A DNA stretch of 63,224 nucleotides from an uncultured Mycoplasmatota bacterium (GTDB lineage: Bacteria > Bacillota_I > Bacilli_A > RF39 > UBA660), in contig CANOWY010000006.1 of the NCBI GenBank assembly GCA_947571135.1, forward strand, positions 1 to 63,224, given 5' to 3'. The notes below the pieces were generated by a model that saw only the letters and a list, made by a program, of their open reading frames with translations, was not told where the DNA came from and ran no database searches. The number at the start of each line of letters is the position of its first letter. The first letter of the stretch is position 1. Below are positions 42,294 to 63,224 of the stretch, piece by piece. A program made the translations under genes and the position numbers.

Positions 42294-42722
42294 TCACCTT
42301 TCTTTTATTATTTTAAATATTTTTTTAATTATTTTTTCTTTGTTTTTATAAATTTGTAATTTTACAAATTCATTATTTTCCCCTTTATATCCTTTTGCTT
42401 TTAGTGTTATTTTTTGATATCCAATATTTGATGTATCCATTGTAATTTCTCCAAAAGAAAAGTTTTCTATTTCGTGATATTTATCATTTATTTTTATTTG
42501 TTCCGCATTAAAACCATCCTTTATTGGATAAAAAAACTGTAAAATACATTCTTCTTCACATAAAACTTGTGCATTGGTTTCCAAAATATTATAAGTATCA
42601 TATTTTAATGAGTAGAAAAATAAACTAGTAAGTAATATTACTGTTAAAAAGCAACTATATTGATATTTTTTCTTGTCTTTTTCTAAATAAGTTATTAGAT
42701 TATATTTTAAATATCTTTTCAC
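42294..42722 (-). CDS. Bacteriocin export accessory protein (short HlyD-like)
   Basis: A 142-residue protein with a basic N-terminus, one membrane helix (YSCFLTVILLTSLFFYSLKY) and an extracellular beta-rich part (KDGFNAEQIKINDKYHEIENF ... KITLKAKGY). Topology is that of a bacteriocin transport accessory protein such as LcnD/ComB, but it is far shorter and lacks the coiled coil. It starts with GTG inside the exporter stop (GTGA overlap) and is followed after four bases by peptide A. Confidence 0.65.
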   Translation of the reverse strand: MKRYLKYNLITYLEKDKKKYQYSCFLTVILLTSLFFYSLKYDTYNILETNAQVLCEEECILQFFYPIKDGFNAEQIKINDKYHEIENFSFGEITMDTSNIGYQKITLKAKGYKGENNEFVKLQIYKNKEKIIKKIFKIIKER

Positions 42723-44773
42723 TTTGCCGCCTCAAAGTTATAAACTTGATCAAAATATTTATCATGATTTTTATGACTCACATATATAATAGTTTTATCT
42801 TTAAATGAATCTTTTATTTTCCGTATAATATCAATTTCTAAATCGTTATTTACTTCACTCAACGCTTCATCCAATATTAAAATTTGAAAAGGATTTAATA
42901 ATGCTCTTGCTAAAATAATTCGTTGCTTCTCACCACCAGAAATATTATTAGAATCACTTGCTAAAAAAGTTTCATAACGAAGTGGTTTTTTAGAAACAAT
43001 ACTATCAATAGCACAAATTTTTAGTATCTCTTTATACTTTGTTTCATCAACATCTCTATTTAGAATGATATTATTTCTTATTGTATCTTGTAGCAAATGC
43101 TCTTTTTGACTTACATACGTAATATTTTTTCTTATGGTATTTAATGAATAATCATTGATATTCGTATCTCCTATTCTAATTTCATTTTGGTTTGTTTCTA
43201 ATAAACGACTTATCATTTGACACAACGTGCTTTTCCCACAACCACTTTCTCCTTTAAATAAAACACAAGACTTTTCTTTAATTCTTAAACAAAAATCTGC
43301 AAATATTTTAGAAAAATCATTATAGGAAAAATTCAGATTTTCAATTATAATGTCTCCATTTTGAAAAGTTTCTAAACCATTTTTTTGCTGCTCCTCTGGA
43401 ATATTGTAAAAATCATTTGTTTTAGTGATACTTACTTTTACATAATTATAACTTGGAAGGATATTTATAATAGTTTTAAATGGGGTGAAAAAGAAACTAA
43501 CTAAACTTTCAAACGTAATCAAATTAATCAAACTACAATTATGACTTATGATTTCTAATAATCCAAAGGAAATGACACTAAAGTTTAATAACTCTTCTAC
43601 AAAACTAGCAATAGAATTGGTATTTACTATCTTTTTGTTCAAATAATAAGAATTTTTTAAATACTTCACCAAACTAATTTCTAATTTTTGAAACATTAAT
43701 TTAATAATATTCAAATTTTTTAATGTAATAAAGGATTCAACATTTTCAATCAAATTGGATTGAAAATTCACTTCTGTTTCATTTACTTTTAAAGCTGCTT
43801 TATAAAGGATTTTTCCTGAAATTATTCCACAAATACTATATAATAAAACAATAAAACAAAGAATTAAAAACAACCGTTTGTTAATAGTCCATAGAATAAT
43901 TCCAACACTAAAAGCCAAGATAGAATCTAAAAGGATTGTAATTAAAATTTCTGAAAGTACATTTTTAATGTTTTCAAGTTCTTTTACTCGTATCATTATT
44001 TCTCCAGTTGTTCTATCTTTAATAAAATAATTAGGAAGCAAAAATAAATGCTTCAAAAAATCGTGATATAGGAATCCATCTAAGTTTTTATTTAAATAAA
44101 TTTTAAAGTGATTGCGAAAATAAAAAAGCATCTCTTTTATCATAAATAAACCAAAAAAGAATAAAAATAAATGATATAAGATTTCTTTTTCTTCATTTTC
44201 ACTAGCAAAATAAATGCCTATCTTTAAATAAAAACCTGTGAAAATAGTAATTACAGTAAGTAATGCTGTTAAAAAAATTATTTTTAAAATTGTTTTTTTC
44301 TCTCTTTTTAAAATTTCAATTATAATTCCTATCAAATGGTTTTCGTTAATTATTTTAGGTAGTTGATATTTAGGATAAAGAGTGATGATGTTTTTGGTCC
44401 ATATAGATTCGAAATCATTTCTTGAAATTTTTATCTTTCCTTTAGCAGGATCCATTACAGTTACCATATTTTTCTCGATTTTATATACAACAACAAAATG
44501 ATTTAAGTTATTCATTTCTACATGAGCAATTATTGGAAGTATGGCATTTTCTAATTCATTTAAATTTTCTAATTTCATACCATAAGCATCGAATCCATAA
44601 TTGATTGCCGTTTTTACAAGATGATAAGCAGTTGTCCCCTCCAAAGACGTCTTTGTATCTTGTCTTAGCACTTCAATTGGAACATAGCCATTATAGTATT
44701 TCATAATAGAAAGTAAACAACATACTCCACAGTCTTTCATATCCTGTTGTCGTACAATAATATTTTTTTTCAT
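42719..44773 (-). CDS. C39 peptidase-containing bacteriocin ABC exporter
   Basis: A 684-residue exporter that both trims and secretes double-glycine peptides. The N-terminal C39 protease has catalytic Cys in QQDMKDCGVCCL (residue 15), His in NHFVVVYK and Asp in VMDPAKG. A six-helix membrane domain (about 160-440) follows, then an ATPase with Walker A GESGCGKSTL, signature ISGGEKQRIILARAL and Walker B ILILDEALSEV. First gene of the bacteriocin operon, preceded by GAGGAGG. The Cys triplet and domain order match the LagD/ComA group. Confidence 0.93.
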   Translation of the reverse strand: MKKNIIVRQQDMKDCGVCCLLSIMKYYNGYVPIEVLRQDTKTSLEGTTAYHLVKTAINYGFDAYGMKLENLNELENAILPIIAHVEMNNLNHFVVVYKIEKNMVTVMDPAKGKIKISRNDFESIWTKNIITLYPKYQLPKIINENHLIGIIIEILKREKKTILKIIFLTALLTVITIFTGFYLKIGIYFASENEEKEILYHLFLFFFGLFMIKEMLFYFRNHFKIYLNKNLDGFLYHDFLKHLFLLPNYFIKDRTTGEIMIRVKELENIKNVLSEILITILLDSILAFSVGIILWTINKRLFLILCFIVLLYSICGIISGKILYKAALKVNETEVNFQSNLIENVESFITLKNLNIIKLMFQKLEISLVKYLKNSYYLNKKIVNTNSIASFVEELLNFSVISFGLLEIISHNCSLINLITFESLVSFFFTPFKTIINILPSYNYVKVSITKTNDFYNIPEEQQKNGLETFQNGDIIIENLNFSYNDFSKIFADFCLRIKEKSCVLFKGESGCGKSTLCQMISRLLETNQNEIRIGDTNINDYSLNTIRKNITYVSQKEHLLQDTIRNNIILNRDVDETKYKEILKICAIDSIVSKKPLRYETFLASDSNNISGGEKQRIILARALLNPFQILILDEALSEVNNDLEIDIIRKIKDSFKDKTIIYVSHKNHDKYFDQVYNFEAAK

Positions 44774-44855: not shown

Positions 44856-45074
44856 TTAATTTTTACTTTTTAAGATATTTTTCAAATTTTTATCTTCTAT
44901 TTTTATTTTTAAATTACATACTTCTACTATTTTTAAAAAAGTTTCTAATGTAATCTTTCGTATTCCACTTTCGTAATGGGCTAAAGTACACTCTGCTATT
45001 CCTAATTTACTTGCTAGTTCTTTTTGCGTATATCCTTTCCTTTTTCGTATCTCTCTTAAATTGATTTTATTCAT
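44856..45074 (-). CDS. Small XRE-family regulator A
   Basis: A 72-residue protein that is almost only an HTH: REIRKRKGYTQKELASKLGIAECTLAHYESGIRKI, then LETFLKIVEVCNLKIKIEDKN. Its start overlaps the end of the surface-protein gene by eight bases, so it is translated with it. A paralogue has the same overlapping position behind the other G-tract surface gene (61040). It probably binds the TGTACA repeat upstream of the surface gene and feeds back on it (inference). Confidence 0.88.
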   Translation of the reverse strand: MNKINLREIRKRKGYTQKELASKLGIAECTLAHYESGIRKITLETFLKIVEVCNLKIKIEDKNLKNILKSKN

Positions 45075-46545
45075 TTATACTTATCCTATACGGATTTACT
45101 TTTGTTCCTTCCCCACTTTTATATTGGACGTTTGGGTTTAAATAAAATGTTGGGTATATATAATATTTGTTGTCCGAGTAAAATTGAGCACCATGATGTA
45201 CCCTACCATTAGATTTTAAAAGCCATGCTGCAATCATGCCCTGAAAATTATAGTAAGCATCTGGAGAAACGAACCAATGTGTTTTTTCTTTTTTTAACCA
45301 TGAATTAATAGCATAATATCCATTATTAGAATTAATTGATTGCGTCCTATAAGTACTATTTACAGAATAACCATAATCACTTGGATACATAAGTCCGATA
45401 TTATAAGCATAAGAAATATTTCCGCCACTTCTTCCAGGAATATTACCTCTCTCATTAGAATATAATATATCCGCGCTATATGAATCTTGATTATTAAAAT
45501 TTAACCCTCCTAAATACCATACACTTGGTTCTATAAATTGTTGATATCCATTTAACTCATTCCAATAAGCATTATTTAATACATTTTGGATTCCACTTGT
45601 ACCCCATGTTATAGAACTATTAGAAGCCCAATAATAAGTAGAACTATAATTTTGCATTTTAATTAATTTAACTCTACTCTCATATTCTCCACCAACTTCA
45701 CTTTGCGTTGGAATTACTCCTATGATTCGGTATAGATTGTCTTCTGGACAAACACTCTCTTCACTTCCAAAACATACGTAATTATTTGGATTTGCTCCTG
45801 TATATCTATAATCTGTTAAGGCTTTTGTTTGATACGTTTCCTCATGCGGAAACTCTTCCATTTCATTTAACATCATTAAATAATCTGTTAATAATACTCT
45901 ATGGCTTTGTTTGGCTGTTACAACTATCTTACTTATAAAGTTCTTATTCATCGCATCATCTTCAACTGTAACGCTTTCATCCATCCATAGTTTTATTGTA
46001 TAGGTCTTACTTTCATTCGCTCCTAACTCTCCACTGGTTAAGTATCTTGCCTCTACTGGTATGTAATCACTTCCTGGATAACTTGGTTCTACACTCTCTA
46101 ATGTATTTAATAGTTTCTTTGTTTCTCCATTAAACTCTACTGCTATATATTCGCTACTTAATCTACTTGTACTTTCCATGATATCTAAATTGACATCATA
46201 TTCTACTGTTGTTGTACAGGTATTTGTGATTGTAAACGTATAAGGACTTAAAATCTTCGCTTCTGCGTCCGTTATGGGATAAGCATTTTGTAAATGAATC
46301 GGATTTTCATCGATTAGTTCTATTTCTAAACACGTACTTTCTATTGTATTGATTCCTTCTTGACTTACTATATGACTCCACCATGCATAACTTACACTTA
46401 TTATAATTCCTAAACTCAGTAATATTCCTATTACTACTAATAGTATTTTCTTCCGGTTTCTTCCTGGGTTACTTTCTAATATACCCCCCCTCCCAGGTTG
46501 ACACCACGGGTTGGGAGGATTTTCTTTTCTTCTTTTTTCCTCCAT
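45067..46545 (-). CDS. G-tract surface protein A (phase ON in this sequence)
   Basis: A 492-residue anchored protein. Residues 1-34 are a charged cytosolic lead with NPWCQPGRGG encoded by a GGGAGGGGGGG tract. A SipW/TasA-like membrane segment follows (KKILLVVIGILLSLGIIISVSYAWW), then a domain shared with 57120 and 61246 (PYTFTITNTCTTTVEYDVN). The C-terminal half (NLYRIIGVIPTQ, WLLKSNGRV, YKSGEGTKVNPYRI) looks DUF6273-like. No Met lies between the tract and the helix, so a tract-length change would abolish the product. Followed by an overlapping XRE gene. Confidence 0.85.
   Translation of the reverse strand: MEEKRRKENPPNPWCQPGRGGILESNPGRNRKKILLVVIGILLSLGIIISVSYAWWSHIVSQEGINTIESTCLEIELIDENPIHLQNAYPITDAEAKILSPYTFTITNTCTTTVEYDVNLDIMESTSRLSSEYIAVEFNGETKKLLNTLESVEPSYPGSDYIPVEARYLTSGELGANESKTYTIKLWMDESVTVEDDAMNKNFISKIVVTAKQSHRVLLTDYLMMLNEMEEFPHEETYQTKALTDYRYTGANPNNYVCFGSEESVCPEDNLYRIIGVIPTQSEVGGEYESRVKLIKMQNYSSTYYWASNSSITWGTSGIQNVLNNAYWNELNGYQQFIEPSVWYLGGLNFNNQDSYSADILYSNERGNIPGRSGGNISYAYNIGLMYPSDYGYSVNSTYRTQSINSNNGYYAINSWLKKEKTHWFVSPDAYYNFQGMIAAWLLKSNGRVHHGAQFYSDNKYYIYPTFYLNPNVQYKSGEGTKVNPYRISINE
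46484..46494 (-). repeat. Homopolymeric G tract in surface gene A
   Basis: Coding-strand GGG-A-GGGGGGG at codons 18-22. Seven uninterrupted G (46484-46490) keep the frame open. The flanks CCTGGG and TATATTA recur as CCTGGG and TACATTA in surface gene B. Confidence 0.85.
46489..46518. repeat. Inverted repeat beside the G tract
   Basis: CCTCCCA (46489-46495) and TGGGAGG (46512-46518) are perfect 7-base arms with a 16-base loop; one arm runs into the G tract. It could promote polymerase slippage at the tract. Confidence 0.7.
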
Positions 46546-46560
46546 CTATTTTCTAAATGT

Positions 46561-46590
46561 AGTATATCATATAATTGTACATATTGTACA
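46561..46590 (-). promoter_or_regulatory. Promoter and TGTACA operator of surface gene A
   Basis: Minus-strand TATACT (46561-46566) is the -10. The -35 region is occupied by TGTACAATATGTACA (46576-46590), two palindromic TGTACA units three bases apart. This is a plausible site for the XRE protein encoded downstream. Confidence 0.55.
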
Positions 46591-61039: not shown

Positions 61040-61249
61040 TTACAACTTTATAAAATCATATTTTCCATTTTTCATTTGAATTAAAAATTTACATTCACAT
61101 ATTTCTAGCATTTTTAAAAAAGTTTCTAAAGGAATCTTATTTGTGCCATTTTCATATCTTGAATATTGTTGTTGCGTTATTCCCATAGCTTCTGCTAAAT
61201 CACATTGCTTAAAACCACAACTCTTACGGATTTCTCTTATATTTATCAT
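61040..61249 (-). CDS. Small XRE-family regulator B
   Basis: A 69-residue HTH protein: REIRKSCGFKQCDLAEAMGITQQQYSRYENGTNKIPLETFLKML. It overlaps the stop of surface gene B by four bases (ATGA) and is the paralogue of the regulator at 44856 in sequence, size and position. Likely autoregulator or cross-regulator of the surface modules (inference). Confidence 0.88.
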   Translation of the reverse strand: MINIREIRKSCGFKQCDLAEAMGITQQQYSRYENGTNKIPLETFLKMLEICECKFLIQMKNGKYDFIKL

Positions 61250-63224
61250 ATAGCAAGAACAAGGTGGAAGCCAATGTGCGTACCTGGATAGCCACCGTCA
61301 GAACTGAAGTAAAAGACACCTACACTACAACCATAGTTGTAATGACCACTACGTGCAATCCACGGAGACATGGAGTAGAGGAACCAACTTTCATCACTAT
61401 ACCAAGATCCTATGTGCCTTATTTGATTGGCTACATATGTAACACTTGCATATGGTCCAAATTCACTAGTTCCATCCCCAAGTATTCTTCTATTAAACGT
61501 TGTATCACTTGTACTATAAGTATAAGTATCAAAATATCTTGCATTTGGAAAATTGATTCCTGTTGTTAAGACTCCTCCTTCACCATAAGCACCATTAAAA
61601 TTAGAGTGGTATGTACTATTTATACCCGATAATAGAGCACTATTCGTAGAATCAAGCACACCACTCATCATGTATTCCCATGCTCCTCCACTCATATCAT
61701 AGATTCCACTATAGTTTCCTGTTGTACTTGCTACTTGACTAGATGGATTTTTATAATTATATGTATTTGTTCCATCTATACCTAAATTTGTACTTTCATA
61801 TCGATTACAATTTTCATTTGTTCCAGTATATCCACATGTTGGTTCATTTTTTGCTGCATATCCAGTTATATAGGCACTATTGTTGTTAATTCTTACACTT
61901 GTAGAAGAACCATATTTTGAGTGTTGTAAATAGGCAACTGCTCCCCACTCTGTATTCTTCATCATATGACTATCTAATTCTCTTTTGTAATTGTAACTTG
62001 CTAGATGAGCATTTACTAGTTGTATATTTCTCCAACTATATACATTCGGTTTGATTTGGATTTTAGTTGAATCAGATGCATTTACTTGAGCAGCAGTCGT
62101 ACTCGTTGCTCCTTTGTATCCTGTCTCAAACTTTCCTACCCATAACCCATTCGTTCCCATCGAAATAAATGCTGGTGGTGTCATATAGTCTCCAATCTTA
62201 CAGTTTCCACTTTCTCCAGAAAGTCCTTGGGTTTTTTCTTCATTCATTGGGGTTGTACATTCCCCATCTATTTCATCACTCGTATTATTAAGTCCAAACT
62301 TAATGGGAATTTCATGGACTTTACTTTCATCTATACTTGTTAGACTTTCATATTCTCCTAAATCCCATATTTGATATGAATATTTGGGTATCCATACAAA
62401 ATAACTCTCTATATTACTTTCTGGTATTTCTTCCTTGTATTTGTATTCTATATTTTTATCATTCAAAATGACTGCGTTTGCCCATCTTTTTTCTTCATAA
62501 CTATACCATTCACTTGCTGGATTTGCTCTTGTAACGACTCCTTTTTCATCTATTTCGACTGGTATTAATCCCTCTGCTACTACTGGATCTGCTCCATTTA
62601 ATATTTCTTCTTTATAAATAGATACTATTTGATTTTGTTTTGCATCAATTACTACTTTACTATAAAAGGTTCCGTTTTGACTGTCATTTCCTGCACTTTC
62701 ATCTAACCATATTCTTACCTCATGTTCGACACTTCCATAGGGTTCTATACTTCCACTATGTATCGTATACGCTTCTACTGCGGTATAATCGCTTTCTTGG
62801 TAGGTTATAGGGGCAGTTGGATTATTACTTAAAATACTTTTAGTGTTCTCATCTACTTTTGTTGCTATGTTCTTACTTGCTATTCGAGATTCTGTTTCCA
62901 TTACTTCTAAGTTTACGTTATAGTCTACTCCTACCCCACAAGTATTTGTGAGTTTAAATCGAAAGGGTTTTAAATTTTTTCCTACTTCATCTGTTATAGG
63001 GTGAGTATTTTTTAAGTTTATCGCATTGGTTAGTTCTTCCATTGTGACACTGATACAGTCTGTTTCTAGTACATTGATTCCTTCTTGTCTTGTACTATAG
63101 GCTATATAGGCATAACTGACTCCTATTAGGATCGTGAGTAGTATTCCTATACTACTCCCTATTAGTATTTTCTTTTCAGTACTTCCTAGGGTTTTCTTAC
63201 CTTTTAATGTACCCCCCCCCCAGG
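61246..63224 (-). CDS. G-tract surface protein B, 5' end beyond the window
   Basis: At least 659 codons. After the G10 tract comes GTLKGKKTLGSTEKK, a membrane segment (ILIGSSIGILLTILIGVSYAYIA), then the domain shared with protein A (INVLETDCISV ... TDEVGKNLKPFRFKLTNTCG). From about 62400 a lectin/FGE-like domain follows: FVWIPKYSYQIW, GLWVGKFETGYKG, GIYDMSGGAWEYMM. The last 45 residues (PWIARSGHYNYGC-VGVFYF-HIGFHLVL) look like a retroelement variable region. If the lead sequence matches gene A, G10 puts it out of frame (phase OFF). Confidence 0.85.
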   Translation of the reverse strand, partial: WGGGTLKGKKTLGSTEKKILIGSSIGILLTILIGVSYAYIAYSTRQEGINVLETDCISVTMEELTNAINLKNTHPITDEVGKNLKPFRFKLTNTCGVGVDYNVNLEVMETESRIASKNIATKVDENTKSILSNNPTAPITYQESDYTAVEAYTIHSGSIEPYGSVEHEVRIWLDESAGNDSQNGTFYSKVVIDAKQNQIVSIYKEEILNGADPVVAEGLIPVEIDEKGVVTRANPASEWYSYEEKRWANAVILNDKNIEYKYKEEIPESNIESYFVWIPKYSYQIWDLGEYESLTSIDESKVHEIPIKFGLNNTSDEIDGECTTPMNEEKTQGLSGESGNCKIGDYMTPPAFISMGTNGLWVGKFETGYKGATSTTAAQVNASDSTKIQIKPNVYSWRNIQLVNAHLASYNYKRELDSHMMKNTEWGAVAYLQHSKYGSSTSVRINNNSAYITGYAAKNEPTCGYTGTNENCNRYESTNLGIDGTNTYNYKNPSSQVASTTGNYSGIYDMSGGAWEYMMSGVLDSTNSALLSGINSTYHSNFNGAYGEGGVLTTGINFPNARYFDTYTYSTSDTTFNRRILGDGTSEFGPYASVTYVANQIRHIGSWYSDESWFLYSMSPWIARSGHYNYGCSVGVFYFSSDGGYPGTHIGFHLVLAI
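61247..61390 (-). other. Candidate DGR variable region (3' end of surface gene B)
   Basis: About 48 codons with visibly higher G+C than the rest of the window and mostly C- or T-ending codons of the NNY kind (TTC CTC TAC TCC; CAT TAC AAC TAT; GGT ACG CAC ATT). This is the signature left when adenines of AAY-rich template codons are replaced. The fixed scaffold W-PW--R-G-Y--G---GVF-F----G----GF-LVL matches variable C-type-lectin ends. No reverse transcriptase or template repeat is in the window. Confidence 0.55.
63212..63221 (-). repeat. G10 homopolymer in surface gene B
   Basis: Ten uninterrupted G on the coding strand between CCT and TACATTA, four bases from the window edge. In the frame of gene A (CCT as a codon) it leads to TAA within three codons after the tract; eleven G would open the frame. 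The window ends here, consistent with an assembly break at a repeated, slippery site. Confidence 0.8.

Follow-up and report, generated by a model that had tools for sequence, protein, structure and literature searches.

A poly-G hairpin cassette as a probable phase-variation switch of a large putative surface-protein family in an uncultured genus of Bacilli

Poly-G contingency loci and phase-variable surface-protein families are already well known. In Campylobacter jejuni NCTC11168, there are 29 poly-G/C loci of at least seven repeats, and the tract lengths among colonies were G8 in 257, G9 in 214, G10 in 431, G11 in 77 and G12 in 9 (PMC4965091). In Candidatus Mycoplasma girerdii, dinucleotide repeats occur in BspA-like proteins and G(8) in a mod gene (PMC5476646), and Helicobacter pylori sabA has tracts in its promoter as well as in its coding region (PMC2715451). 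Stem-loop-mediated slippage in Roseiflexus IS630 is reported to give transcripts one base short (reviewed in PMC5009743). No paper on poly-G contingency loci in the lineage studied here was found in the open full-text literature.

We analysed a 63,224-nucleotide stretch of DNA (the window) from an uncultured Mycoplasmatota bacterium. A first-pass annotation had proposed that a G tract inside the coding sequence of surface protein A switches this protein on and off by slippage. The features of this flagged copy, and of a second family member in the window, are as follows.

45067..46545, minus strand: surface protein A ORF, 492 aa, with a leader, a single membrane helix and an ectodomain of ~440 aa
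46387..46446, minus strand: membrane helix of protein A, residues ~34-53, a long N-terminal helix in the structure model too
46484..46494, minus strand: G tract GGGAGGGGGGG, with an interruption not seen in the pure G8-G10 tracts of relatives
46484..46518, minus strand: predicted hairpin, with the 5′ arm CCTCCC (46513-46518), a short inner stem-loop and the G tract as 3′ arm
46538..46542, minus strand: family ribosome-binding site GGAGG, from alignment with four paralogues
46543-46545, minus strand: ATG of the protein A ORF, directly upstream of GGAGG, the canonical ATG 3′ of GGAGG being deleted
46561..46566, minus strand: probable -10 box TATACT, read from the sequence and common to paralogues
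46576..46590, no strand assigned: operator-like palindrome TGTACAATATGTACA, in 5 copies of this genome, one with a variant
61246..63210, minus strand: second family member, 654 intact codons past the tract
63212..63221, minus strand: G10 tract of the second family member, truncated at the end of the contig

The tract does lie in frame within the protein A ORF, 5′ of its only membrane helix and with no alternative Met between the two, as had been annotated; the minus strand at 46484-46494 reads CCT GGG AGG GGG GGT ATA TTA, codons 18-21 of the 492-codon ORF. The window contains 2 runs of at least seven G versus 0.31 expected from dinucleotide shuffles (two or more were reached in 4 of 100 shuffles), and on this excess, together with 50 such runs in the 1.45-Mb genome, a chance origin was rejected. 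The position was also said to be conserved in a paralogue, and indeed the G10 at 63212-63221 has shared flanks, as do about 20 more tracts in the genome. In the overlapping contig C34, which has the same module (C34/L101), this G10 is out of frame with its own gene, whose product shows a weak C-terminal FGE-sulfatase-like match, likewise found in several paralogues.

It is the flagged copy itself that departs from its family. Alignment with four paralogues shows that its tract is G3-A-G7, with three extra bases including an A, and that the canonical ATG after GGAGG is absent; thus it has neither the uninterrupted tract nor the normal start codon of a contingency locus. Nine bases present in the C10 copy are missing here, probably lost between A-runs. 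Because the canonical ATG is missing, the ATG of the flagged ORF falls inside the usual ribosome-binding site AGATGGAGG, and only this frame, starting ~15 nt past the TATACT box and having no ribosome-binding site of its own, is open through the tract. The G3-A-G7 split should also lead to less slippage. Phase variation of the flagged copy is therefore doubtful, given the deleted start codon and the split tract; for the gene family, by contrast, slipped-strand phase variation is well supported, with pure G8-G11 tracts in ~22 paralogues of this genome and in dozens per genome throughout the genus, both ON and OFF phases, and OFF ORFs that are intact, and the claim rests on relatives of the flagged copy. 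The flagged copy is probably an aberrant, damaged family member, weakly expressed or frozen in view of its lost start and interrupted tract, and it may be locked or silent. Since cassette repeats assemble poorly, the sequence of this copy may contain an assembly error. Protein A matched no Pfam and no PADLOC family, its one NCBIfam match at the leader and helix is below cutoff (14.2 vs 35 bits), and the structure model of its ectodomain (pLDDT 80) found no confident PDB match. In five cassettes of this genome the palindrome TGTACAATATGTACA, possibly an operator, precedes the tract by ~100-113 nt; one of the five has the variant TGTACAATATGAAC. An ABC transporter with an N-terminal C39 peptidase domain, a bacteriocin-type exporter, adjoins the surface gene at 42719-44773.

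The relatives share one layout: GGAGG, ATG, a Lys/Glu-rich leader, CCTCCCAAC, 12-20 nt containing a short stem-loop, G8-G11, TA(T/C)A(T/C)TA, a basic stretch, one helix and a variable ectodomain. The helix part is of two types, …SYAWW and …GGITLYKTFALYEE, and the ectodomains are diverse (concanavalin-like, ALK/LTK glycine-rich, DUF285, DUF6273-like and weakly FGE-sulfatase-like). This genome, examined as stretches around tracts, has ~22 cassette copies, and relatives hold up to ~45; a DNA search with the cassette 5′ end gave 45 matches in this genome. Several contigs terminate within a cassette, which is expected of near-identical repeats, and because cassettes break assemblies, public genomes probably show fewer copies than exist. 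Every copy is equipped with a ribosome-binding site and a start of its own, which argues against a single expression site switched by a recombinase (Vsa, Vpma type). Variation by a diversity-generating retroelement was rejected, as no RVT_1 reverse transcriptase match was found in the 92.6%-complete genome. No phage record matched the cassette, and the pattern hits in IMG/VR were attributed to chance, being on contigs of higher GC (0.44-0.70) that do not have the cassette layout. G7-G10 runs also occur inside other genes (L071, L097 and others) and are further candidate switches, such as a frame-breaking G8 near the 5′ end of an SDR-like oxidoreductase gene and a G10 in a membrane protein gene.

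From 12 genomes of the genus, 97 distinct modules were extracted, and the downstream frame was readable in 88. Twelve of these 88 copies are in frame (usually G9), and the other 76, mostly G10, are not. In 80 of the 88 modules, an ON tract has a length of 0 mod 3 (with the usual flanks, G9 and once G6), and the tracts of these 80 canonical copies are G10 in 62, G9 in 10, G8 in 5, G11 in 2 and G6 in 1. A change of one base makes the difference between full length and an early stop, the second-best frame ending within five codons in 96 of the 97 modules. Restart of translation past the tract was rejected: the first codons there are ATA, ACA, CTA, TAT or TTA, without any conserved start codon among them. 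Could the OFF copies and the flagged copy simply be decaying pseudogenes or silent recombination donors, the tract changes being homopolymer noise? A few copies do have broken ORFs (L100, L106 and L176), the flagged copy is without its start codon, and recombination between copies takes place, since the 5′ regions are homogenised more than the 3′ regions. However, nearly all OFF copies retain ORFs of at least 200 codons past the tract (48 of 53 copies with one G too many and 10 of 11 in the third phase, beside 10 of 10 ON copies), no copy borrows its ribosome-binding site or start from another, and close pairs show signs of purifying selection. The median dN/dS of OFF-OFF pairs is 0.67, and the closest pairs range from 0.15 to 0.56. 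Intact ORFs and such dN/dS values would not be expected of long-dead genes, and we consider the pseudogene explanation improbable.

We then compared 18 near-identical pairs of paralogues whose sequences past the tract are at least 92% identical. Tract length differs in 9 of the 18 pairs (the flagged copy, scored as G7, is in three of these nine), versus 15 indel events in 4222 flanking bases. In genome G009, one pair at 99.6% identity differs by G10/G9 and another at 98.8% identity by G8/G10, with no other indel in 250 bp. Between close paralogues, then, no part changes faster than the tract, although gene conversion could also carry tract lengths between copies. MutS and MutL are present and intact in the genus, so that loss of mismatch repair, which we had considered as a cause, does not explain high slippage.

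Taken together, the sequences point with fair assurance to a genus-specific cassette for slipped-strand phase variation, joined to the 5′ end of many genes that encode one large family of single-pass surface proteins. When replication slips in the G-run, Gs would be gained or dropped. With the canonical leader, G9 (or G6/G12) would link the start codon to the helix and ectodomain and turn the gene ON, and G8, G10 or G11 would lead to a stop within a few codons and turn it OFF. Since each copy, with its own ribosome-binding site and start, would switch alone, a cell would display a small, shuffled subset of the repertoire. The evidence for slippage lies between paralogues and between species; slippage would have to be frequent and reversible in cells, the family proteins are presumably exposed at the surface, and the benefit would come through escape from immunity or phages.

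The dominance of G10, an OFF length, would fit correction at the RNA level too. Here the stem-loop would make RNA polymerase or the ribosome slip at G10, giving transcripts with one G fewer, and OFF copies would be expressed at a low, programmed level. The cassette has the stem-loop 5′ adjacent to the slip run that is characteristic of transcriptional slippage, an architecture shared with the slippage site of Roseiflexus IS630 (reviewed in PMC5009743); moreover, 62 of the 80 canonical copies exceed the ON length by exactly one G, and compensatory changes accompany the conservation of the stem. Nevertheless, a tract one G too long is found in only 1 of the 8 phase-shifted copies, in which the flanks call for another phase (P = 0.0005, Fisher’s exact test), and their lengths are still 8-10, a modest test in that the eight copies are related. 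Tract length thus follows the mutational mode, G10, rather than the frame, and the constant offset expected of programmed -1 recoding is not found (62/80 vs 1/8), so that such recoding is disfavoured. Furthermore, G8 copies retain intact ORFs, the slippage sites seen described in that review (PMC5009743) are A/T or T-C runs rather than G-runs, and promoter tracts, which have no frame to keep, show the same length mode. We regard RNA-level recoding as quite unlikely.

The promoter tracts form a second set of G-runs in this lineage. The arrangement TTGAC-G8..11-TATAAT was found at 41 sites in 15 of the 22 genomes of the genus, and the reversed pattern at none. Tract lengths are G8 in 3, G9 in 11, G10 in 25 and G11 in 2, sharing the G10 mode of the coding tracts and of the C. 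jejuni colonies (PMC4965091), and the spacers are mostly 16-19. In this genome (G000), G9-G10 runs lie between TTGACA and TATAAT at L072:1905+, L075:1938-, L082:4688- and L099:2095-, and the genes behind them, with names read from sequence, include an ABC transporter (ATPase), a putative lipoprotein and others. These runs would tune transcription of genes other than the surface family. Because a spacer tract can act only via DNA length, they support DNA-level slippage in the lineage. The promoter form occurs in 12 of 98 genera sampled in the family. In two genomes from other genera of the family, promoter spacers contain nine (G045) and eleven (G048) G-runs whose flanks are alike (e.g., TTGACCGAAAGGTC-G7/8-TATAAT), which look like separate expansions.

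A conserved hairpin is unexpected for a plain contingency tract and counts against the slippage reading. When the 52 distinct cores of the genus were folded with a G10 tract added, all showed CCTCCC paired to the G-run around a short inner stem. The inner stems vary by species yet still pair (CCAGAA/TTCTGG, CCATTG/CAATGG, CCGAA/TTCGG and CAGGA/TCCTG), and native arm combinations beat swapped ones, with 1 of 20,000 permutations as good, a figure that overstates independence because the twelve species are related. The hairpin matched no known RNA family (best E 0.75, a snoRNA by chance). No CCTCCC-like arm was seen at the promoter tracts, so the hairpin seems unnecessary for holding the tract near G10; a role in RNA is more likely. 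GGAGG, too, is complementary to CCTCCC. The T of CCTCCC forms only a wobble with the G-run and matches GGAGG perfectly, which raises the possibility that the G-run is mainly an RNA switch, in which CCTCCC pairs with either GGAGG or the G-run, a long run frees the ribosome-binding site, and run length sets the strength of translation as well as the frame. As a mean of 92 copies from 12 species, the predicted pairing of the site drops from 0.97-0.98 with 0-4 G to 0.27 with G10; for comparison, 16 GGAGG-ATG sites in the window average 0.45. These values are predictions of pairing, however, and the match of CCTCCC to GGAGG may be incidental, since CCTCCC resembles an anti-Shine-Dalgarno sequence. 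The mean predicted pairing is also alike in ON (0.36) and OFF (0.30) copies, and the effect is saturated by G8 in G004 and G009. We consider the RNA switch rather unlikely as the main function. Similarly speculative is the combined form, in which CCTCCC would act as an anti-Shine-Dalgarno arm captured by the G-run, so that one slippage step would shift both frame and ribosome access and give graded as well as on/off control across the whole surface repertoire.

DNA matches to the cassette were found in 21 of the 22 genomes of the genus, and a looser layout pattern matched in 15 of the 22, a few by chance, with ~45 copies in one genome. Among 291 genomes from 150 genera of the family, the cassette is confined to this genus. 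In a scan of 85,000 species, the matches listed included the layout in uncultured Bacilli/Tenericutes assemblies, several of them from rabbit or mouse gut, and the other pattern hits examined among the matches listed did not have it. The search patterns need CTCCCA or CCTCCCAAC, and copies with other arms (e.g., L118, with CCTCAAC) are thus missed. Runs of at least eight G number 2-80 per genome in the genus and 0-4 in most other families of the class, one other family having 9 and 22 per genome.

Three features set this system apart within a known kind: one cassette common to the family, expansion of that cassette throughout the genus, and conservation of the hairpin. As far as we have found, it is new that a G-run serves as 3′ arm in a hairpin that is conserved and compensated, and that CCTCCC, its 5′ arm, is able to pair with the ribosome-binding site as well. 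With ~22 to 45 copies per genome, the family would form a large surface repertoire, phase-variable through poly-G, outside the classic pathogens, in uncultured gut Bacilli, several from rabbit or mouse, and surface variation of unculturable commensals would become readable from existing metagenomes. It is also a case in which homopolymer, hairpin and ribosome-binding site may be coupled.

Like the contingency loci of C. jejuni, the family has G8-G11 tracts with a mode at G10 and ON/OFF states set by reading frame. The poly-G tracts of C. jejuni sit in mostly unrelated genes, whereas here one shared 5′ hairpin cassette drives a surface family of 20-45 members in an uncultured Bacilli lineage. 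As with the phase-variable surface proteins of mollicutes (PMC5476646), repeat length switches surface proteins and the discovery is metagenomic; the repeats of Ca. Mycoplasma girerdii, however, are mostly dinucleotide, with no shared hairpin cassette seen described in that account (PMC5476646), and the window organism, in contrast, retains a penicillin-binding protein gene. The G-runs between TTGACA and TATAAT resemble the promoter tract of H. pylori sabA, but the promoter form here spans a range of genera in the family. Finally, as in Roseiflexus IS630, a stem-loop lies directly 5′ of a homopolymeric run, whereas here the G-run itself is the 3′ arm of the stem and its length is not tied to the frame for a -1 transcript.
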